Below are positions 6,240-19,463 of a stretch of 64,000 nucleotides of DNA, one piece after another. A program made the position numbers and the translations under genes. This DNA comes from Luteimonas kalidii. Its GTDB lineage: Bacteria > Pseudomonadota > Gammaproteobacteria > Xanthomonadales > Xanthomonadaceae. The notes beneath the pieces were generated by a model. It had not been told where the DNA came from, did no database searches, and saw nothing but the letters and a program-made list of their open reading frames with translations. Position 1 is the first letter of the stretch. Each line of letters starts with the position of its first letter. The stretch spans positions 62,001-126,000 of the forward strand of contig NZ_JARXRO010000018.1 of NCBI RefSeq assembly GCF_029887935.1, given 5' to 3'.

Positions 6240-7109
6240 CTACGCCGGGGCGCCGTCCAGCACCGTCAGGAACGCACGCGCCGCGTTCGACAGCGTGCGG
6301 CCGGCATGGGTGACATGGCCCAGCTGGCGCGACAGGCGCACGCCGGGCACGCGCAGCACCGTGGTCTGGGCATCGAGCATGGTGTGCGGCAGCACGGTCC
6401 ACGCCAGGCCCACGCTGGCGAGCATTTTCAGCGTTTCCATGGCGTTGGTGGTCATGCGCAAGGTCGGCGCCAGGCCCGCCGCGGCGAAGTGGCCGGCGAC
6501 GATGCGATGGGTGAAGGTGCCCGCATCGGGCAGCACCGCCGGATGCCGCGCGAGTTCGTCGAGACCGACCTCGCCGCGTCCGGCCAGCGGATGGTCCGGC
6601 GCGACCACGAACTCGAGCGGGTCGTCCCACACCGGCACCGTGCGCAGCGGCGCCGCGGCGGGGCCGAGCGTGGTCAGCGCCAGCTCGGCCTGGCCGTGCA
6701 GCACCTGTGCCCAGGCCTGCTCGGAATCGACGAAGCGCAGGTCCAGCGCCGCCCCGGGGTGCGCGCGGCTGAAGGCGCGCAGCAGCGGCGGCAGGCGGTG
6801 CAGGCCGATATGGTGGCTGGTGGCCAGGCTCAGGCGGCCGCCGATGCGGGCATCCAGGTTGTCCAGTGCGCGCCGGGTGTCGTCCAGTTCGGCCAGGATC
6901 CGGCGGGCGCGCGGCAGCAGCGCATGCCCGGCTTCGGTCAACGCGACCTCGCGCCCGATGCGGTCGAACAGCCGTCGCCCGAGCTGTGCTTCGAGCGCGG
7001 CGATGCGCTTGCTCACGGCCGGCTGGGTGAGATGCAGGCGCGCACCGGCGCCGGAGAAGCTGCCGCTGTCGGCGATGGCGAGGAAGGCGTCCAGGCTGGC
7101 CAGATCCAT
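6240..7109 (-). CDS. LysR family transcriptional regulator, divergent from leuCD
   Basis: 289 residues from the ATG at 7109; an upstream in-frame extension to 7220 has no LysR-like sequence and would run into the leuC promoter, so it is rejected. The N-terminal winged HTH is at residues 17-37 (GSFSGAGARLHLTQPAVSKRI), followed by a LysR substrate-binding domain with the segment RVPGVRLSRQLGHVTHAGR near the C-terminus. It is divergent from leuC with 128 bp between starts, so it probably controls leuCD. The effector may be a leucine-pathway intermediate, but this is inference. Confidence 0.9.
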   Translation of the reverse strand: MDLASLDAFLAIADSGSFSGAGARLHLTQPAVSKRIAALEAQLGRRLFDRIGREVALTEAGHALLPRARRILAELDDTRRALDNLDARIGGRLSLATSHHIGLHRLPPLLRAFSRAHPGAALDLRFVDSEQAWAQVLHGQAELALTTLGPAAAPLRTVPVWDDPLEFVVAPDHPLAGRGEVGLDELARHPAVLPDAGTFTHRIVAGHFAAAGLAPTLRMTTNAMETLKMLASVGLAWTVLPHTMLDAQTTVLRVPGVRLSRQLGHVTHAGRTLSNAARAFLTVLDGAPA

Positions 7110-7237
7110 CGAGTCGCTCCGGTTATCCGATGGATGAAAAATATGAATTTGAGTTATCGAAGGCAAGGGCCTAGGATCGATCCACGCCCACCGCCGCGTG
7201 CGGACCGGCGCTCCACCCACCGACGCGGGACCCGCCG
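7110..7237. promoter_or_regulatory. Divergent lysR/leuC control region
   Basis: 128 bp with an AT-rich core at about 7134-7156. The hexamer GTTATC occurs twice in direct orientation, starting at 7122 and 7153, 31 bp or about three helical turns apart. The first copy overlaps a small palindrome ATCC-GAT-GGAT (7125-7135). LysR proteins often bind two sites spaced this way, so these are candidate recognition and activation sites. No strong sigma-70 -35/-10 pair stands out, in keeping with activator dependence. Confidence 0.45.
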
Positions 7238-8665
7238 ATGGCAGGCAAGACGCTGTACGACAAGCTCTGGGAGATGCACGAGGTCAAGCGCCGCGACGAC
7301 GGCTCCTCGCTGATCTACATCGACCGCCACATCCTGCACGAGGTCACCTCGCCGCAGGCCTTCGAGGGCCTGCGCCTGGCCGGCCGCCGGCCGTGGCGGG
7401 TGGACGCCAACCTCGCCACCCCCGACCACAACGTGCCGACCACGCGCGCCGAGCGCGCCGGCGGCCTGATGGCGATCGCCGATCCGGTCTCGCGCGTGCA
7501 GGTGCAGACGCTGGACGAGAACTGCGACGACTTCGGCATCCTGGAATTCAGGATGGATGACGTGCGCCAGGGCATCGTCCACGTGGTCGGCCCCGAGCAG
7601 GGCGCCACGCTGCCGGGCATGACCGTGGTCTGCGGCGACTCGCACACCTCCACCCACGGCGCCTTCGGCGCGCTGGCGCACGGCATCGGCACCTCCGAGG
7701 TCGAACACGTACTGGCCACCCAGTGTCTGGTGGCGAAGAAGATGAAGAACATGCAGGTGCGCGTGGAGGGCACGCCTGGTCCCGGGGTGACCGCCAAGGA
7801 CATCGTGCTGGCGATCATCGGCCGGATCGGCACCGCCGGCGGCAACGGCCATGCGCTGGAGTTCGCCGGCAGCGCCATCCGCGCGCTGTCGATGGAAGGG
7901 CGCATGACGATCTGCAACATGGCGATCGAGGCCGGCGCGCGCGTGGGCATGGTCGCGGTGGACGGGAAGACCATCGCCTACGTGAAGGGTCGCCCGTTCG
8001 CGCCGAAGGGCGCCGACTGGGACGCCGCGGTCGCGGTCTGGGAGGGCCTGGTCTCCGACCCGGACGCGCATTTCGACAGCGTGGTGGAACTGCGCGCCGA
8101 GGACATCAAGCCGCAGGTCAGCTGGGGCACCTCGCCGGAGATGGTGCTGGCGGTGGACCAGGCCGTGCCGGATCCCGAGCGCGAGGCCGATCCGGTGAAG
8201 CAGGATTCGATCCGGCGCGCGCTGAAGTACATGGGCCTGCAGCCGAACCAGCCGATCACCTCGATCCGGCTCGACCGCGTGTTCATCGGCTCGTGCACCA
8301 ATTCGCGCATCGAGGACCTGCGCGCCGCGGCCGAGGTGGCGAAGGGGCGCAAGGTCGCCGCGACGGTGAAACAGGCGCTGGTCGTGCCGGGCTCGGGCCT
8401 GGTCAAGGCGCAGGCGGAAGCCGAAGGGCTGGACCGGATCTTCCTCGAGGCCGGCTTCGAATGGCGCGAACCGGGCTGTTCGATGTGCCTGGCGATGAAC
8501 CCCGACAAGCTCGGTAGCGGCGAACACTGCGCCTCGACGTCCAACCGCAATTTCGAGGGTCGCCAGGGCGCGGGCGGGCGCACCCATCTCGTCAGCCCGG
8601 CGATGGCCGCGGCCGCCGCGGTGGCCGGCCATTTCGTCGACGTGCGTGAACTGTCGCCAGCCTGA
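7238..8665 (+). CDS. leuC: 3-isopropylmalate dehydratase large subunit
   Basis: 475 residues, cytoplasmic aconitase-family enzyme that isomerises 2-isopropylmalate to 3-isopropylmalate in leucine synthesis. The three [4Fe-4S] cysteines are visible at about residue 353 ([12 protein letters not shown]) and 414 and 417 (CSMC). Aconitase signature regions such as [26 protein letters not shown] are intact. Full length for the family (E. coli LeuC is 466). leuD follows after 13 bp, and the two products form the heterodimer. The LysR gene lies divergently upstream. Confidence 0.98.
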
Positions 8666-8678
8666 TCGGAGCCCCACG

Positions 8679-9326
8679 ATGAACCCCTTCACCACCCATA
8701 CCGGCCTGGTCGCGCCGCTGGACCGCGCCAATGTCGACACCGACCAGATCATCCCCAAGCAGTTCCTGAAGTCGATCCGGCGCACCGGTTTCGGCCCGAA
8801 CCTGTTCGACGAATGGCGCTACCTCGACGTCGGGGAGCCCGGCCAGGACAGCTCCAACCGGCCGCTGAAGCCGGACTTCGTGCTGAACTTCCCGCGCTAC
8901 CGCGGCGCCAGCGTGCTGCTGGCGCGCGAGAACTTCGGCTGCGGTTCCTCGCGCGAGCACGCGCCCTGGGCGCTGGAGGAGTACGGCTTCCGCGCCATCA
9001 TCGCCCCGAGCTTCGCCGACATCTTCTACAACAACAGCTTCAAGAACGGCCTGCTGCCGATCGTGCTGCCCGATGCGGTGGTCGATACGCTGTTCGCGCA
9101 GTGCGAGGCGACCGAGGGCTACGCGCTGACCGTCGACCTGGCCGCCCAGGCGGTGACCACGCCCGACGGCGAGCGCCACGGGTTCGAGATCGACGCCTTC
9201 CGCAAGCATTGCCTGCTCAACGGCCTGGACGACATCGGCCTGACCCTGCAGGAGCACGCGGCGATCGCCACGTTCGAGGCGCGCCACCGCGCGGCGCAAC
9301 CGTGGCTGTTCGGCGCCGGCGCCTGA
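8679..9326 (+). CDS. leuD: 3-isopropylmalate dehydratase small subunit
   Basis: 215 residues from ATG 8679; an in-frame extension to 8646 overlaps leuC and has no family similarity. It carries the swivelling domain of aconitase-type enzymes, with [24 protein letters not shown] at the N-terminus and the substrate-binding loop [15 protein letters not shown]. It partners LeuC. The leuCD pair ends here, and the gene converges on leuB across a strong hairpin. Confidence 0.98.
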
Positions 9327-9355
9327 CGCGCAGACCGACCCGTTCCGGTCCAGAC

Positions 9356-9383
9356 GAAGACGCCGCCCGGGGGCGGCGTCTTC
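9356..9383. terminator. Strong hairpin between convergent leuD and leuB
   Basis: Perfect 13-bp inverted repeat GAAGACGCCGCCC / GGGCGGCGTCTTC with a 2-nt centre, in the 114-bp gap between the convergent leuD and leuB stop codons. Neither side has a long T tract, so it is either a weak bidirectional terminator or a 3' end stabiliser. Confidence 0.6.
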
Positions 9384-9440
9384 GCGTGCGCGATCGTCGA
9401 CGGCAGGCGTGTACCGGACGCGACCTCGTGGCGCAGCCGC

Positions 9441-10499
9441 TCAGCGCAACCGGTCGATGACCGCCTGCGCCGCCTGCGTGGTGTCGACCGCCTGACCGGC
9501 CGGCGCCAGGTCGGCGGTGAACACCCGGGCGTCGAGCGCGGCCGAGACCGCCGCTTCGATCGACGCCGCTTCGGCCTCCAGCCCCAGCGAGTGGCGCAGC
9601 AGCATCGCTGCGCTGAGGATCGTGGCGTAGGGGTTGGCGATGCCGCGGCCGGCGATGTCGGGCGCCGAGCCGTGGATCGGCTCGTAGATCCCGACCTTGC
9701 CTTCGCCCAGCGAGGCCGAGGCCAGCAGGCCGAGCGAACCGGCCAGCATCGAGGCCTCGTCGGTGAGGATGTCGCCGAACATGTTCTCGGTCACGATCAC
9801 GTCGTAGGCGCGCGGCTTCGACAGCAGGTGCATCGCCATCGAGTCGACCAGCTGGTGCTCGAGCGTCACGTCCGCGAACTCGTCGCGCATCACGCGCGTG
9901 GTGACGTCGCGCCACAGGCGCGAGGTTTCCAGCACGTTGGCCTTGTCGACCGAGGTCAGGTGGCCCCGGCGGGTCCGGGCGAGCGTGGCGGCGCGGCGCA
10001 CCACGCGCTCGACCTCGGCCACGCTGTAGCGGCACAGGTCGGTGGCGTCGGTGTCGCTGCGGGTCTTGTCGCCGAAGTAGATGCCGCCTGTGAGTTCGCG
10101 CACCACCACGATGTCCACGTCCTGCAGCAGTTCCGGCTTGATCGGAGAGGCGTCCAGCGCCGCCGCATGCGGCTTGACCGGGCGCAGGTTGGCGAACAGG
10201 CCCAATGCCTTGCGGATCGCCAGCAGGCCCTGTTCCGGGCGCACCTTCGCCTTCGGATCCGACCACTTCGGGCCGCCGACCGCGCCCAGCAGCACCGCGT
10301 CGGCAGTGCGTGCGGCGGCGAGCGTCGCGTCCGGCAGCGGCACGCCATGGCGGTCGATGGCGATGCCGCCGATGTCGTGCTCGGTGAAGCGGAACTCGTG
10401 GCCGTGGCGCGCGGCGACGGCCTGGAGGACGGGCAGGGTGGCGGCGACGATCTCGGGACCGATGCCGTCCCCGGGCAGTACGACGATGTCAGCGTGCAT
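9441..10499 (-). CDS. leuB: 3-isopropylmalate dehydrogenase
   Basis: 352 residues. It oxidises and decarboxylates 3-isopropylmalate with NAD+ to 2-ketoisocaproate. The start [18 protein letters not shown] and the segments [10 protein letters not shown] and [12 protein letters not shown] are characteristic, as is the NAD-binding stretch [18 protein letters not shown] near the C-terminus. It is the last gene of the minus-strand ilv-leu operon, 117 bp after leuA. leuB is therefore separated from leuCD, which converge on it. Confidence 0.98.
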
Positions 10500-10616: not shown

Positions 10617-12163
<1,547 letters not shown>

Positions 12164-12167
<4 letters not shown>

Positions 12168-13279
12168 GCGAGGAGTTCCTCGGGAAGATCGCTGTCGATG
12201 GTACCCGTTGCGGCCTTCGGCCGCGGGTGCGTTGCATCACGGGCCGGGAGCAGGCCGGCGGGGAGCGGTGTCCGCTCGGCCGCCGGCTGCGGAAGTCGCT
12301 CCCGGGCCCGGCGCCGCGGCTTGCGTGGCGGCCGCGGCCGCACCTCCGATAGCAGGGTCGCCAGCACCGCGGCGTCGACGTTGCCGCCCGAGACCACCGC
12401 GCACTTGCGCTTGCCGGCCACGCGCTTGCCGGCCGCGAGCGCCAGCGCGCCGGCGCCCTCGGCGATCACGTGTTCCTCGAGCGCCAGCCGCACCAGGGTC
12501 TCGCGCAGCTCGGCCTCGCGCACGATCACCACGTCGTCGAGCAGCTCGCGCAGCAGCCGTTCGGTCAGGTAGCCCGGCTCCTTCACCCGCACGCCGTCGG
12601 CCAGGGTCGCGCAGGGATCGACCAGTGTCCGGTCGCCCCTGAGCGCGCGGCACATCGCGTCCACGCCCTCGACCTGGGCGCCCACGATGCGCACGCCCTG
12701 GGACTTGAGCGCCAGCGCCACACCCGAGGCCAGCCCGCCGCCGCCGATCGGCACCAGCACCACGTCCGGGTTCATGGCCGCCGCGATCTCCAGCCCCACG
12801 GTTCCCTGTCCCGCGATCACGTCCGGATCGTCGAAGGCCGACAGCAGGCGGAAGCCGTTCTGGGCCGCGAGTTCCTTCGCGAAGGCCTTGGCCTCGTCGT
12901 AGGTCTCGCCGTGCAGGCGTACGGTCGCGCCCCAGTGGGCGACGCCGGCGACCTTGGTGTCCGGCGCGGTCTTCGGCATCACCGTGATCGCCGGGATGCC
13001 GAGCCGGTACGCAGCCCAGGCCATGCCCTGTGCATGGTTGCCGGCCGAGGCGGTGATCACGTAGCGGTCGTCGCCGCGCTCGCGCGCGGCCAGCAGCGCG
13101 TTGAGCGCGCCGCGCACCTTGTACGACCCGGTGCGCTGCAGGTTCTCCAGCTTGAGCCAGGTGCCGAAGCGTTCGGCGTAATGGGTGGGGGTGACGTCGA
13201 GGTACTTGCGCAGCCGTGCCTGGGCCGCCAGCACGTCGCTGGCGGTCACTTCGATGGTGCTGGCTACGGCCGGGTCCAT
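12164..13279 (-). CDS. ilvA: Threonine ammonia-lyase (short form, no ACT domain) with Arg/Pro-rich tail
   Basis: 371 residues from ATG 13279, whose A is shared with the ilvE stop (TGATG). It is a fold-type II PLP enzyme converting threonine to 2-ketobutyrate for isoleucine. The PLP lysine is K54 in [13 protein letters not shown], and the glycine loop GGGGLASG is present. The catalytic core ends near residue 310 ([11 protein letters not shown]). There is no C-terminal ACT-like regulatory domain as in the roughly 514-residue biosynthetic IlvA. Instead the frame runs on for about 60 Arg/Pro-rich residues to the leuA start. Operon context argues for a biosynthetic rather than catabolic role. Confidence 0.93.
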
Positions 13280-14223
13280 CAGACCGTCGTCAGCCAGTGG
13301 CGCCAGGCCGGTTCCCGGCCGCGCACGACGCGACCGTACAGCGCCTGCAGTTCGCGCGTGACCGGGTTGTCGCCGTAGTGGCGGTCCTCGATCTGCGCCA
13401 CCGGCGCGACCTCGGCCGCGGTGCCGCAGGCGAACACTTCGTCGGCCTGCAGCAGTTCCTCCAGCGACACCGCGCGTGCCTGCGCGCCGGTCAGCTGCAG
13501 CAGCGTGTCGCGGGTGATGCCGTCCAGCGCATCGGGATGGGCCACGGCCGTGAGCTCGCCATCGCGCACCATGAACACGTTGGCGCCGGTGCATTCCACC
13601 ACGCGGCCCTCGCGGTCGGTGAACAGCGCCTCGTCGAAGCCGCGCGCCTTGGCCTCGCGCTTGGCCAGGATCGAATTGACGTACCCGCCGCACAGCTTCA
13701 GCGGCGGCAGCGAATCGGCAGGATTGCGGCGCCAGCGCGACACCCCCAAGCGCGCGCGGGTGCCGTTGAGATGCACGTGGGTGGCGGTGGAGGCCACCAT
13801 CATGTGCGGCACGTGGCCTTCCACGTCGAGCCCGAAGCTGCCCTCGCCGAACCACGCCAGGGGACGGATGTAGGCGTCGCGGTGGCGGTTGGCGCGCAGG
13901 GTCGCGAGCACCGCCTCCGCGGCCTGCGCGGGATTGAACGGCAGCGCGAACATCTCCGCGCCGAGGCGCATGCGCTCCAGGTGTTCGGGCAGACGGAACA
14001 CGGCTGCGCCGTCGTCGGTGGCGTAGGCGCGGACGCCCTCGAACACGCCGCTGCCGTAATGCATCGCGTGCGTGGTCAGGCCGGCCTGCATGGCATCGCC
14101 GGGCACCAGCGCGCCATCGAACCAGGCGAGCGGGACGGTGGTGGCGTCGGTTGCCGGGCGCGCGCTCTCGGTCGCGGCGTGGCGGGCGTGGGCGTCGGCG
14201 ATGGGGGTGACGGTGGCGCTCAT
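13279..14223 (-). CDS. ilvE: Branched-chain amino acid aminotransferase
   Basis: 314 residues, fold-type IV PLP transaminase for the last step of Val, Leu and Ile synthesis. The motif THAMHYGSGVFEGVRAY (51-67) and the PLP lysine K176 in PPLKLCGGYVNS are visible, with RDTLLQLTG and the segment DEVFACGTAAEVAPV near the C-terminus. It is the fourth gene of the attenuated operon, 56 bp after ilvM and overlapping ilvA by one base. Confidence 0.97.
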   Translation of the reverse strand: MSATVTPIADAHARHAATESARPATDATTVPLAWFDGALVPGDAMQAGLTTHAMHYGSGVFEGVRAYATDDGAAVFRLPEHLERMRLGAEMFALPFNPAQAAEAVLATLRANRHRDAYIRPLAWFGEGSFGLDVEGHVPHMMVASTATHVHLNGTRARLGVSRWRRNPADSLPPLKLCGGYVNSILAKREAKARGFDEALFTDREGRVVECTGANVFMVRDGELTAVAHPDALDGITRDTLLQLTGAQARAVSLEELLQADEVFACGTAAEVAPVAQIEDRHYGDNPVTRELQALYGRVVRGREPAWRHWLTTV

Positions 14224-14279: not shown

Positions 14280-14516
14280 TCACGGGCAGGGCTGTACCGA
14301 TACCGACAGGCAGTCGTACATCTTCGCCAGTTGCTGCTGCAGCGAGGCGTCCGGGCGGTCGCCTTCCACCGTCACCCGCAGCTGCCAGCGATCCCCCCCG
14401 GGCTGGGCCTGGCCGTCGAGCGCCAGCGGCCGGAAGCCGCGCCGCTCGGTGGCGCCGATCACGCGCGCCAGCACGCCTTCGGCGCTGCGCAAGGTGAGGT
14501 CAAGCTGGTAGCGCAT
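14280..14516 (-). CDS. ilvM: Acetolactate synthase small regulatory subunit, IlvM type (ACT domain)
   Basis: 78 residues, a single ACT domain (MRYQLDLTLRSAEGVLARVIGATERRGF) of the IlvM size class. It pairs with the catalytic subunit IlvG and stabilises or regulates it. The ATG lies inside the 3' end of ilvG with a 17-bp overlap, consistent with stoichiometric coupled translation. The two-strand/helix pattern is clear, but regulatory ligand residues cannot be judged by eye. Confidence 0.9.
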   Translation of the reverse strand: MRYQLDLTLRSAEGVLARVIGATERRGFRPLALDGQAQPGGDRWQLRVTVEGDRPDASLQQQLAKMYDCLSVSVQPCP

Positions 14517-16269
14517 TGTTCGGCTCCTCGGAGGCGGACGAGGCGGACGGGGGCTGCACCGGGTCCGGTTCGCCGGTATCGAGCGTGCCGGCGTCGTCGG
14601 GATCCATCATCTGCGCGTTGTTGTGGTTGGGCGGGACCAGCGGCCAGACATTGGCGGCGGTGTCGATGGCCACGTGCAGCAGGGTGGGGCCATCGGCGGC
14701 GAGCAGCGCCCGCAGGGCGTCGTCCACGTTCGCGGCCTGGTCGACGTGCAGCGCCTGGATGCCGAACGCGCGCGCGACCTCGGCGAAGTCGGGGTTGTCG
14801 GACAGGTCGATCTCCGAATAGCGCTTCTCGAAGAACAGTTCCTGCCACTGCCGCACCATGCCCAGCGCGGAGTTGTCCAGCAGCACGATCTTCACCGGCA
14901 GCCGGTAGCGGCGGATGGTCGCCAGCTCCTGGATGTTCATCATGAACGAGCCGTCGCCGCTGACGCACACCACCTGCGCGTTCGGATCCTGCATCTGCGC
15001 GCCCATCGCCGCCGGCAGGCCGAAGCCCATCGCGCCGAGCGAACCGCTGGTCAGATGCTGGCGCGGGTGGCTGAAGCGCCAGTGCTGCGCCACCCACATC
15101 TGGTGCTGGCCGACGTCGCACGAGACCACCGCGTTCGGCGCCAGTTCGCTCAGGCGCTTGAGCAGCGCCGGCGCGTAGACCTTGTCGCCGGGCGCGTCGT
15201 AGCGGGCGGCATGGCGCGAGCGGCGCTCCAGGCAGGTGTCGCGCCAGACCTTGCGCGCGGCGGCGTGGCGGCCTTCCATCTGCGCCGCGAGCGGTGCGGC
15301 CAGGCGCGAGAGGCTCTGCGCCAGGTCGCCGGGCACCGACACGTCGGCCGCGCGCAGCTTGCTGATCTCGCAGCCGTCGCCGTCCAGGTGCACCACCCGC
15401 GCGTGCGGCGCGAACTCGGCCAGCTTGCCGGTGGCGCGGTCGTCGAAGCGCGCACCCACCACGAACAGCAGGTCGCATTCCTGCACCGCCATGTTCGCCG
15501 CTCGGCTGCCGTGCATGCCGAGCATGCCGAGGTTCGACGGATGCCCGGCGGGCAGGGCGCCCAGGCCCTTGAGCGTGAGCACCGTCGGCAGGCCGGTGAG
15601 GTCGACGAACTCGCGGAACGCCTCCACCGCATCGCCCAGCACCACGCCGCCGCCGGCGTAGACCACGGGTTTGCGGCATTGGGAGACCAGCGCCGCGGCC
15701 TCGTGCAGCGCGGCGTCGGGCGGACCCGGCACCGGTTCGACCGGCAGCGGCGAATGCACCGGCAGATGCGAGGCATCGGCCATCTGCACGTCCTTGGGCA
15801 GGTCGATCAGCACCGGCCCCGGGCGCCCGCTGCGGGCGATGCGGAACGCTTCGGCGAACACCCGCGGCAGCTCGTCGACGCTGCGGGGCAGGAAGCTGTG
15901 CTTGACGATCGGCAGGGTCATGCCGAACACGTCCAGTTCCTGGAACGCGTCCGTGCCCATCAGGAAGGTGGGCACCTGGCCGGTGAGGACCACCATCGGC
16001 ACCGAGTCGAACATCGCGTCGGCGATGCCGGTGACGAGGTTGGATGCGCCCGGGCCGGACGTGGCCACGCACACGCCGACGCGTCCGCTGGCGCGGGCAT
16101 AGCCGTTGGCGGCGAACGCCGCGCCCTGCTCGTGCCGGACCAGTACGTGCTTCAGCGACGCGCCGTGCAGCGCGTCGTAGAACGGCATGATCGTTCCGCC
16201 GGGATAGCCGAACAGCGTGTCGACGCCTTCGGCTTCCAGGGCCTGCACCAGCCAGTGCGCACCGTTCAT
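14500..16269 (-). CDS. ilvG: Acetolactate synthase large (catalytic) subunit
   Basis: 589 residues from ATG 16269, whose A is shared with the ilvC stop codon. It is a ThDP- and FAD-dependent enzyme making acetolactate or acetohydroxybutyrate. Visible features are the N-terminal catalytic region [25 protein letters not shown], the activation segment RHEQGAAFAANGYARASG, and the C-terminal ThDP/Mg motif GDGSFMMN. Upstream in-frame sequence to 16692 lies within ilvC and is not coding. The C-terminus has a short Pro/Ser/Glu-rich tail that overlaps ilvM. Confidence 0.97.
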   Translation of the reverse strand: MNGAHWLVQALEAEGVDTLFGYPGGTIMPFYDALHGASLKHVLVRHEQGAAFAANGYARASGRVGVCVATSGPGASNLVTGIADAMFDSVPMVVLTGQVPTFLMGTDAFQELDVFGMTLPIVKHSFLPRSVDELPRVFAEAFRIARSGRPGPVLIDLPKDVQMADASHLPVHSPLPVEPVPGPPDAALHEAAALVSQCRKPVVYAGGGVVLGDAVEAFREFVDLTGLPTVLTLKGLGALPAGHPSNLGMLGMHGSRAANMAVQECDLLFVVGARFDDRATGKLAEFAPHARVVHLDGDGCEISKLRAADVSVPGDLAQSLSRLAAPLAAQMEGRHAAARKVWRDTCLERRSRHAARYDAPGDKVYAPALLKRLSELAPNAVVSCDVGQHQMWVAQHWRFSHPRQHLTSGSLGAMGFGLPAAMGAQMQDPNAQVVCVSGDGSFMMNIQELATIRRYRLPVKIVLLDNSALGMVRQWQELFFEKRYSEIDLSDNPDFAEVARAFGIQALHVDQAANVDDALRALLAADGPTLLHVAIDTAANVWPLVPPNHNNAQMMDPDDAGTLDTGEPDPVQPPSASSASEEPNNALPA

Positions 16270-17261
16270 CACGCGGCCTCTTTCTGTTCCTTCGGGGAAT
16301 TGTCCAGCCACACCATCTTCGCGCGCAGCTGCTTGCCGACCACTTCGATCGGATGGTCGAGGTCGGCCTGCTTGTACCGGTTGTAGTTCGGCAGCCCGGC
16401 TTCGTGCTCGGCCACCCAGTTCTTCGTGAACGTACCGTCCTGGATGTCCCTGAGCACTTCGCGCATGCGCTCCTTGGTGCCGGCGTCGATCACTCGCGGG
16501 CCGCTGACGTAGTCGCCGTACTGCGCGGTCTCGGAGACGAACTCGAGCATGCGGGTGATGCCGCCCTCGTAGAACAGGTCGACGATCAGCTTCAGCTCGT
16601 GCAGCACTTCGTAGTAGGCGATCTCCGGCTGGTAGCCGGCTTCCACCAGCACCTCGAAGCCCGCCTGCACCAGCGACGAGGCCCCGCCGCACAGCACTGC
16701 CTGCTCGCCGAACAGGTCGGTTTCGGTCTCTTCCTTGAAGGTGGTCTCGATCAGGTTGGCGCGCGCGCCACCGAGGCCGTCGGCGTAGGCCAGCGCCAGC
16801 TGCTTCGCCTTGCCGGTGGGATCCTGGTGCACGGCCCAGATGCAGGGGACGCCGCGGCCGATCTCGTATTCACGGCGCACCAGCGCGCCCGGGCCCTTGG
16901 GCGCGACCAGGATCACGTCGAGGTCGTCGCGCGGTTCGATCATGCCGAAGTGCACGTTCAGCCCGTGCGCGAACAGCAGGCAGGCGCCGGGCTTCATGTT
17001 CGGCGCCAGCGCCTCGGCGTAGACCTGCCGCTGCACCATGTCGGGCGTGAGCACGGCGACCAGATCGGCCTCCCTCACCGCCTCGGCGGGCGCCTTCACA
17101 CTGAAGCCGTCGGCCTTGGCCTTGGCCTCGGTGGGGCCGCCCGGGCGCAGCCCGACGGTCACGTCGAAGCCCGAATCGCGCAGGTTGAGCGCATGCGCGC
17201 GCCCCTGGCTGCCGTAGCCGACGATGGCGATGCTGGGCTTGGGAAGGGAGGACTGGGTCAT
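16269..17261 (-). CDS. ilvC: Ketol-acid reductoisomerase (class I, short form)
   Basis: 330 residues from ATG 17261; an upstream in-frame start would sit in the attenuator. NADPH-dependent isomerisation and reduction of acetolactate. The Rossmann motif [17 protein letters not shown] is at about residues 15-31, and the C-terminal knotted domain contains the metal-site region [20 protein letters not shown]. Length fits class I KARI. It is the first structural gene after the leader peptide and terminator, so it is directly exposed to attenuation. Confidence 0.98.
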
Positions 17262-17314
17262 GTCTTGTGGTCTCTGCGGTGACGGTGTTGGTTGGAAAAC
17301 GGCCACGGTGGGCA

Positions 17315-17347
17315 ACAAAAAACCCCGCCCTTGCGGTGCGGGGTTTT
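17315..17347 (-). terminator. Rho-independent attenuator terminator upstream of ilvC
   Basis: On the minus strand AAAACCCCGC is followed by a 9-nt loop and GCGGGGTTTT, then more T. This is a textbook intrinsic terminator placed between the leader peptide stop (17367) and the ilvC start (17261). In the attenuation model, an alternative upstream pairing would form when ribosomes stall on the leader Ile/Leu/Val codons. I did not derive the competing antiterminator helix with certainty. Confidence 0.88.
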
Positions 17348-17366
17348 GCGATTCGGCGCTTCCTGC

Positions 17367-17477
17367 TTACGCGCCCGATCGTCCCGCCCCTGTTGGCGAG
17401 GTAATAAGCACGAGTACGAGAATGGACGACGCGCTGGCGTCGTGGGCATTCGTGGCAGGGGTGTGGCGTTGCAGCAT
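17367..17477 (-). CDS. ilvL: ilv operon leader peptide (attenuator peptide)
   Basis: 36 codons, ATG at 17477 and TAA at 17369-17367. The peptide begins MLQRHTPATNAHDASASS and continues with Ile-Leu-Val-Leu-Val-Leu-Ile at positions 19-25, seven consecutive codons for the three end products of the operon. It then ends TSPTGAGRSGA. A rho-independent terminator follows 20 nt after the stop codon. This is the expected design for transcription attenuation by charged tRNA-Ile, -Leu and -Val. It is too short for ordinary gene calling. A -10-like TAGTTT lies 7 nt before the ATG, so the mRNA may be leaderless. Confidence 0.88.
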   Translation of the reverse strand: MLQRHTPATNAHDASASSILVLVLITSPTGAGRSGA

Positions 17478-17483
17478 TGACGC

Positions 17484-17513
17484 AAACTAAACCGCGCTTT
17501 CACGGCTTGTCAA
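17484..17513 (-). promoter_or_regulatory. Predicted promoter of the ilvL-ilvC-...-leuB operon
   Basis: On the minus strand, a perfect -35 TTGACA (17508-17513) lies 18 bp from TAGTTT (17484-17489). The predicted start site falls at or within a base or two of the leader-peptide ATG (17477). Confidence 0.55.
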
Positions 17514-17548
17514 GCGCTGTCGCGACTTAATCCGTTGCCGCGGAAATC

Positions 17549-17602
17549 GTTGCAACTGTAACGGCGAAAACTCCCCAGAATGCCGCTTTGACGCATTGCG
17601 TC
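17549..17602 (+). promoter_or_regulatory. ilvD upstream region with two perfect palindromes
   Basis: Between the operon promoter and ilvD there are two perfect inverted repeats: GTTGCAAC (17549-17556) and GACGCA-T-TGCGTC (17590-17602). The second ends 19 nt before the ilvD ATG at 17622. A CAGAAT at 17576-17581 could be the -10. The palindromes look like operators for a dimeric regulator, but no regulator is identified. Confidence 0.4.
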
Positions 17603-17621
17603 ATTTCCCCCGCGAAGCTCC

Positions 17622-19463
17622 ATGCCCGAATACCGCTCCAGAACCTCCACCCACGGCCGCAACATGGCCGGCGCGCGCGCGCTGTGGCGCGCCACCGGCA
17701 TGCGCGACGACGACTTCCACAAGCCCATCGTCGCGATCGCGAACTCGTTCACCCAGTTCGTGCCCGGCCACGTGCACCTGAAGGACCTCGGCCAGCTGGT
17801 CGCGCGCGAGATCGAGCGCGTCGGCGGCGTGGCCAAGGAATTCAGCACCATCGCGGTCGACGACGGCATCGCGATGGGCCACGACGGCATGCTGTATTCG
17901 CTGCCCAGCCGCGAGGTGATCGCCGACGCGGTCGAGTACATGGTCAACGCTCACTGCGCCGATGCGCTGGTGTGCATCTCCAACTGCGACAAGATCACGC
18001 CCGGCATGCTGATGGCCGCGCTCCGGCTCAACGTGCCTACGGTGTTCGTGTCCGGCGGGCCGATGGAGGCGGGCAAGACCGCGCTGGCCGACCACAAGCT
18101 CGACCTGGTCGACGCGATGGTGATGGCGGCCGATCCCGAGGCCTCGGACGAGCAGGTGGCCGCGGTCGAGCGCAGCGCCTGCCCGACCTGCGGATCGTGC
18201 AGCGGCATGTTCACCGCCAATTCGATGAACTGCCTGACCGAGGCGCTGGGGCTGTCGCTGCCGGGCAACGGCACGGTCCTGGCGACGCATGCGGATCGCG
18301 AACAGCTGTTCCTGCGCGCCGGCCGCACCGCGGTGGAACTGTGCCATCGCTGGTACGGCGCGGAGGATCCCGGCGCGCTGCCGCGCGGGATCGCGACCTT
18401 CGAGGCGTTCGAGAACGCGATGACGCTCGACATCGCGATGGGCGGCTCGACCAACACCATCCTGCACCTGCTGGCCGCGGCGCAGGAGGGCGGGGTGCCC
18501 TTCACGCTGCACGACATCGACCGCCTGTCGCGGCGCGTGCCGCAGCTGTGCAAGGTGGCGCCGAACACCCAGAAGTACCACATCGAGGACGTGCACCGCG
18601 CCGGCGGGATCATGGCGATCCTCGGCGAGCTCGCGCGTGGCGGGCTGCTGCACACCCATGTCCCGACTGTGCATGCCGCGAGCCTGGGCGAGGCGATCGC
18701 GAAGTGGGATGTCGCCACGGTCGAGGACGAGGCCGTGGCCACGTTCTACCGCGCCGGGCCCGGCGGCATCCCGACCCAGGTCGCCTTCAGCCAGGCCACG
18801 CGCTGGGCGACGCTGGATACCGATCGCAGCGAAGGCTGCATCCGCAGCGTCGAACACGCTTATTCGCAGGAGGGCGGGCTGGCCGTGCTCCACGGCAACA
18901 TCGCCGTCGACGGATGCGTGGTGAAGACCGCCGGCGTCGACGAGTCGATCCACGTCTTCGAAGGCAGCGCGCGCGTCTACGAGAGCCAGGACGCGGCGGT
19001 GCAGGGCATCCTCGGCGACGAGGTGAAGCCCGGCGACATCGTGGTGATCCGTTACGAAGGCCCGAAGGGCGGTCCCGGCATGCAGGAGATGCTGTACCCC
19101 ACCAGCTACCTCAAGTCGAAAGGCCTGGGCAAGCAGTGCGCGCTGTTGACCGACGGACGATTTTCCGGCGGCACCTCTGGACTCTCCATTGGCCACGTGT
19201 CACCGGAAGCGGCGGCCGGGGGCAGCATCGGCCTGGTCCGCGACGGCGACCGCATCCGCATCGACATCCCGGTGCGCACGATCGCACTGCTGGTGTCGGA
19301 CGAGGAACTCGCCGCGCGCCGCGCCGAGCAGGATGCGAAGGGCTGGAAACCCTTGCAGCCGCGCCCCCGCAAGGTCAGCGCTGCGTTGAAGGCCTATGCG
19401 CTGCTGGCCACCAGCGCCGACAAGGGCGCGGTGCGCAACCTGGCGCTGCTGGAAGCGGACTGA
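17622..19463 (+). CDS. ilvD: Dihydroxy-acid dehydratase
   Basis: 613 residues, Fe-S dehydratase making the 2-keto acid precursors of valine and isoleucine. Cluster cysteines are visible in [10 protein letters not shown] and [20 protein letters not shown]. The C-terminal [22 protein letters not shown] motif is intact. The start [21 protein letters not shown] matches the family. It is transcribed away from the attenuated operon, so it is controlled separately. Confidence 0.98.

Follow-up and report, generated by a model that had tools for sequence, protein, structure and literature searches.

How is the branched-chain amino acid operon that begins with ilvC in this 64-kb window (the whole stretch of DNA that was analysed) controlled, and does the short frame upstream of it, with its run of Ile, Leu and Val codons, have a part in that control? 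In our analysis the first structural gene is ilvC (ketol-acid reductoisomerase, 16269..17261 on the minus strand; NCBIfam NF004017, 514.9 bits, cut-off 336). It is followed on the same strand by ilvG (acetolactate synthase large subunit, 14500..16269; NF006524, 891.5 bits, cut-off 738), whose start was placed from the profile match and which overlaps the ilvC stop codon by one base. Next come a 78-aa ORF that resembles ilvM, the small subunit, by its position only (14280..14516), an ilvE-like branched-chain aminotransferase just below its cut-off (13279..14223; NF005146, 263.6 bits, cut-off 279) and a threonine dehydratase of the ilvA/tdcB type with an approximate 5' end (12164..13282; NF006455, 622.4 bits, cut-off 489). 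The series ends with leuA (2-isopropylmalate synthase, 10617..12167; NF002086, 728.7 bits, cut-off 532) and leuB (3-isopropylmalate dehydrogenase, 9441..10499; TIGR00169, 468.2 bits, cut-off 353.2), all on the minus strand. The preliminary description had listed a seven-gene operon; the order from ilvC to leuB bears this out, with the reservation that ilvM is placed by position and ilvE falls just under the threshold. These seven genes, ilvC-ilvG-ilvM-ilvE-ilvA-leuA-leuB, appear to form one transcript. The divergent ilvD lies at 17622-19463 on the plus strand. At the other end, two plus-strand frames (7238-8665 and 8813-9460) converge on leuB; their lengths and location would suit leuC and leuD, and a gene for a LysR-type regulator (6240-7220, minus strand) lies near them.

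Upstream of ilvC, on the minus strand, which the preliminary description leaves unnamed, a leader frame of 36 codons and a stop (17367..17477; ATG at 17477, TAA ending at 17367) encodes MLQRHTPATNAHDASASSILVLVLITSPTGAGRSGA. It contains, as had been claimed of it, seven consecutive codons for Ile, Leu and Val, namely ATT CTC GTA CTC GTG CTT ATT (Ile-Leu-Val-Leu-Val-Leu-Ile; 17403..17423, minus strand). When the 360 nt between ilvC and ilvD were shuffled 20,000 times with dinucleotide composition kept, an ATG frame with such a run appeared in one shuffle, and no other ATG frame of 60 aa or less carries one on either strand of the 64-kb window. The absence of branched-chain codons before ilvC in relatives had been named as an outcome that would speak against attenuation. 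Of 149 genomes searched in the family, 108 gave an ilvC match, four of them a weak partial one only, and we retrieved 80 ilvC loci with named hosts from the genome collection; among the hosts are Xanthomonas, Stenotrophomonas, Pseudoxanthomonas and Thermomonas, and from these named relatives the window appears to belong to the Lysobacteraceae (Xanthomonadaceae). The 38 loci examined were the 30 best ilvC matches, the window among them, and eight named loci chosen because a leader was visible; L029 and L033, which look like one contig, are both counted. The run is kept upstream of ilvC in 37 of the 38, the exception being L018, where none lies within 500 nt of ilvC. The comparisons below use 77 distinct leaders, including that of the window, from the Lysobacteraceae and close kin.

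Beyond the leader stop codon lies an intrinsic terminator made of regions 3 and 4 (17317..17347, minus strand), with a stem-loop at 17347-17319 and a T-run at 17322-17317. The hairpin is G+C-rich, with perfect 10-nt arms and a 9-nt loop, and ends in six T's. It begins 19 nt past the leader stop, in agreement with the distance of about 20 nt given in the preliminary description, while the end of the terminated RNA, placed there near 17310, is predicted nearer 17317. A strict search for perfect stems found a terminator in 51 of the 77 leaders. That search returned nothing in the other 26, most of which have an A.C mismatch in the stem, and chose another hairpin in L005. When the search was anchored, regions 3 and 4 were located in all 77 leaders, with the constancy of the core bases being partly by construction, as the anchors were CCCGC for region 3 and GCGGG for region 4.

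The terminator is one of three pairings that the leader RNA may adopt. Region 2, AGGGGCGGGACGA (17379..17391, minus strand), can pair either with the control codons (1:2, the protector) or with the 5' arm of the terminator (2:3, the antiterminator). Region 1 of the protector hairpin consists of the five middle control codons (17406-17419). In the antiterminator, GGTGCGGG, which lies within the Gly-Ala-Gly codons of the leader, pairs with CCCGCACC, the terminator 5' arm; since this arm is common to 2:3 and 3:4, antiterminator and terminator are mutually exclusive. Over the 77 leaders the protector has a mean of 11.79 of 13 pairs. Two hundred synonymous resamplings weighted by the codon usage of the operon gave 8.85 ± 0.14 (maximum 9.23), and another 200 with all synonyms equally likely gave 9.00 ± 0.14. 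The window has 12 of the 13 pairs, a value attained by 1.9% of its own resamplings. For the 2:3 pairing the mean is 7.73 of 8 pairs against 6.2 under uniform synonymous resampling of region 2, of which five pairs lean partly on the anchor, region 3 having been located by its CCCGC core. The window has seven of the eight: its GGG, where 56 of the 77 leaders have GGT, breaks one 2:3 pair, with -25.9 kcal/mol as against -30.8 kcal/mol in L003. Within the terminator, an A.C or A.G mismatch is present in 38 of the 77 leaders, while the matching 2:3 pair there is intact in 73. At the outermost pair of the same stretch the relation is reversed, with 2:3 intact in 62 and 3:4 in 70.

Regions 2 and 3 are joined by a further, inner helix, which lengthens the antiterminator. 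In this extended form, counted over 58 of 65 distinct sequences, 88.8% of cells are paired, against 30-52% when the strands are slid and 86.4% when columns are shuffled, and 22 cells are altered on both sides where shuffles give 8.7 (0/500). By two of the five measures, the number of pairs with both sides changed (38/500) and that of further pair types (174/500), shuffles are not clearly beaten. RNAalifold gave no covariation support for regions 2-3 (term 0.05) and little or none for the whole core (69 of the 77 sequences); the count over the named structure is the more informative of the two. Over 64 sequences the inner region is on average more stable than after dinucleotide shuffling (mean z -1.49). 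For the predicted fold of the window's leader the advantage over shuffles is only weak (z -1.8), with 7 of 200 shuffles folding as well. Folding the leader had been put forward as a check for an antiterminator, and the arms of antiterminator, terminator and protector are all present and conserved. When a stalled ribosome is assumed and all the RNA beyond it is folded, the optimal structure still contains the terminator in 7 of 7 examples shown, so antitermination must be kinetic, which is the usual assumption for classical attenuators.

The hairpin alone is a plausible terminator, and it could be constitutive, merely dampening ilvC transcription downstream of a frame that is untranslated and present by chance. 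We find this explanation very improbable, since 77 distinct leaders share the start, the frame, the run and the unusual codons, since the run appears by shuffling in 1 of 20,000 cases, and since region 2 matches two pairing partners more closely than its amino acid sequence would demand.

The last codon of the run is ATT in all 77 leaders (17403-17405, minus strand, in the window), and the codon before it is CTT in 72. When six run codons are counted, CTG does not occur once among 219 Leu codons in the 77 leaders. In seven local frames (ilvC, ilvD, the ilvE-like gene, leuA, leuB and the presumed leuC and leuD) 0.9% of the codons for Ile are ATT; for Leu the shares are 4% CTT and 70% CTG, and for Val 2.7% GTA. 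The constancy of ATT can be set beside its usual synonym, in that ATC accounts for 99% of Ile codons in nearby frames and yet does not occur at this position. Several of the unusual run codons can be explained by the 1:2 pairing. The third base of ATT is not explained in this way, because it falls outside the 13-pair helix. The stop codon lies 51 nt from the start of the run, taken as six codons, in 74 leaders and 39 nt in the other three, a spacing that would leave region 2 free when the ribosome stalls and partly covered when it stands at the stop.

Where transcription and translation of the leader start is a further question. The -35 hexamer TTGACA (17508..17513, minus strand) lies 29-32 nt before the leader ATG in every one of the 77 leaders. 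The probable -10 of the window, which we assign by inference, is TAGTTT (17484..17489, minus strand), with an 18-nt spacer and 6 nt before the ATG; in most of the leaders this region has the extended-like form TGnTTnTCT, 18 nt past TTGACA and about 6-7 nt before the ATG. The window's own -10 is poor, with three of six consensus bases. A consensus scan of 17240-17640 reported neither promoter nor terminator at its thresholds, probably because the scanner allows a loop of at most 8 (here 9) and needs four of six bases in the -10 (here three). By the usual geometry of sigma-70 promoters, transcription would start at or beside the A of the leader ATG. Position counts over the 77 leaders revealed no conserved purine-rich stretch before the ATG that could be a Shine-Dalgarno sequence, and a mild preference for G/A at -6 and -5 is the sole trace of purine bias. 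With no conserved Shine-Dalgarno sequence and a promoter that would place the start at or beside the ATG, leaderless initiation is likely, and the leader is probably translated from a leaderless mRNA that begins at the ATG or within a base or two of it. Attenuation would hold equally if a conventional leader mRNA started farther upstream, and the frame, which is open far 5' of the ATG in several relatives, together with the weak -10, lends this arrangement some weight. It seems to us unlikely, if worth keeping in mind, given that TTGACA keeps its distance from the ATG throughout, that a Shine-Dalgarno sequence is not conserved beyond the two positions mentioned, and that there is little conservation upstream of the -35 in the 77 leaders.

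Taking the leaderless start as the preferred reading, we propose the following sequence of events. Transcription would start at the leader ATG or within a base or two of it, and a ribosome would load directly on the 5' end. With ample charged Ile-, Leu- and Val-tRNA, translation would proceed to the stop codon, where the ribosome would cover part of region 2 or else leave, upon which the protector hairpin 1:2 would form. With region 2 either covered or held in 1:2, the terminator would arise from regions 3 and 4, and transcription would stop near 17317. Should any of these charged tRNAs run short, the ribosome would stall in the run and keep region 1 open, so that region 2 would be left free. 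Free region 2 would then pair with region 3 as it emerges, no terminator would form, and the polymerase would continue into ilvC. Termination in the cell and its response to amino acids are predicted by this model. Ribosome-mediated attenuation had been the central claim of the preliminary description, and the conserved run, terminator, antiterminator and protector arms support it. Three points go beyond that description: the missing Shine-Dalgarno sequence with a promoter close to the ATG, the control codons' role as protector arm, and a cassette that in certain relatives precedes another ilvD. On these features of the sequence we consider it highly probable that a ribosome-mediated transcription attenuator controls ilvC-ilvG-ilvM-ilvE-ilvA-leuA-leuB, and the branched-chain genes would very probably be switched on only when those amino acids are short.

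Control through a bound regulator or a riboswitch, with the leader ORF incidental, has also to be weighed. Other bacteria regulate ilv and leu genes through proteins of the LysR type, the window has a LysR-type gene of its own at the position given above, and the divergent region between ilvC and ilvD could hold operators. We nevertheless give a protein- or small-molecule-dependent leader very little credence: in the leader every Rfam match stayed far below the gathering score, with Thr_leader at 19.6 and Phe_leader at 18.8 bits where 55 is needed, and promoter, ORF and the three pairings account for most of the conserved stretches. An additional regulator may act at the promoter alongside the attenuator.

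The leader recurs in many relatives, and its position varies. At E<=0.01 a profile built from 19 leaders hit 89 of the 398 genomes searched in the order; 86 of these belong to the window's family, and the weakest few hits are perhaps due to chance. Among 24 named loci (L032-L055) the leader lies before ilvC in eight, before ilvD in five and at neither in nine; L038 is incomplete and L043 is without ilvD. In the five (L040, L041, L051, L052 and L054, from Lysobacter and Luteimonas) the leader precedes an ilvD about 37% identical to that of the window, with ilvC then following, and here the regulatory cassette and the first gene have been recombined. In the nine (L042, L045-L050, L053 and L055) no such leader was found in the 450 nt before ilvD, nor upstream of ilvC by a pattern search that also missed the leaders of L051 and L052. 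By eye, the ORF before ilvD in several of these nine seems to end in a LeuB C-terminus. A different variation is seen in loci of the Xanthomonas/Stenotrophomonas type, which have about 140 extra nt between terminator and ilvC with a second small ORF (for example MNDITATS...). Its ATG lies 43-48 nt after the start of the terminator 3' arm in 14 of 21 loci (L007, L009, L010, L013, L017, L019, L021, L022, L023, L027, L028, L030, L034 and L035), and it is absent from the window.

Taken as a whole, our data make it reasonably likely that this is an attenuator of the Lysobacteraceae lineage at large that works from a leaderless mRNA, in which one 13-nt stretch would serve as protein code, as partner of the control codons and as partner of the terminator arm. 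The codons CTC/CTT and GTA and the constant ATT would then owe as much to RNA pairing as to tRNA supply, and the cassette of promoter, leader and terminator would have been kept while the first gene switched between ilvC and the distant ilvD.

In E. coli, ilvL and ivbL are short ORFs with a run of Ile, Leu and Val codons; between them and the branched-chain genes lie an antiterminator and a terminator, only one of which can form at a time, and translation of leader ORFs of the E. coli type is led by a Shine-Dalgarno sequence. The leader described here is like ilvL and ivbL in its Ile/Leu/Val codon run, in its exclusive antiterminator and terminator and in the branched-chain genes downstream. 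It is unlike ilvL in being without a Shine-Dalgarno sequence and probably leaderless, and the operon differs from ilvGMEDA in that it begins with ilvC and includes leuA-leuB. The likeness to the E. coli ilvL design that had been proposed thus extends to the control-codon run and the terminator/antiterminator, but not to the Shine-Dalgarno start or to a match with the known leader families. In a scan of the 19 leaders the window's peptide was unmatched in Pfam and NCBIfam, and the weak matches that did occur were one of 19 to Pfam IlvB_leader (E 0.062) and one of 19 to NCBIfam IvbL (E 0.16). Attenuated operons include E. coli ilvGMEDA (ilvL) and ilvBN (ivbL) (PMC1183508).

Leaders closer in one respect or another are described in other lineages. 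The Corynebacterium glutamicum ilvBNC operon has translation-dependent attenuation with a three-hairpin model, and leaderless initiation is discussed for it (PMC11857589). It resembles our case as a branched-chain operon with translation-dependent control and three hairpins, and differs in its unrelated lineage and its first gene. In Sinorhizobium meliloti trpL the ATG of the leader ORF forms the very 5' end of the leader transcript (PMC7298713), so leaderless leader peptides are already known in Proteobacteria; unlike ours, that system concerns tryptophan control in an alphaproteobacterium. The Caulobacter crescentus ilv leader is a CDS with Ile and Val codons that is described as attenuating acetolactate synthase genes (PMC4117421), alike in its leader CDS and different in operon and lineage. 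The mechanism is classical, and the leaderless twist is itself known elsewhere. Among the papers listed by a literature search, judged by title and the opening of the abstract, none describes this attenuator in Xanthomonadaceae.

For Xanthomonas, Stenotrophomonas, Lysobacter and the rest of their group, for which Pfam, NCBIfam and Rfam have no at-threshold leader family, the attenuator offers a concrete point at which control of branched-chain amino acid synthesis can be tested. It may also serve as a natural case in which to ask whether tRNA supply or RNA pairing decides the choice of control codons, and how an attenuator operates if its leader ORF lacks a ribosome-binding site.
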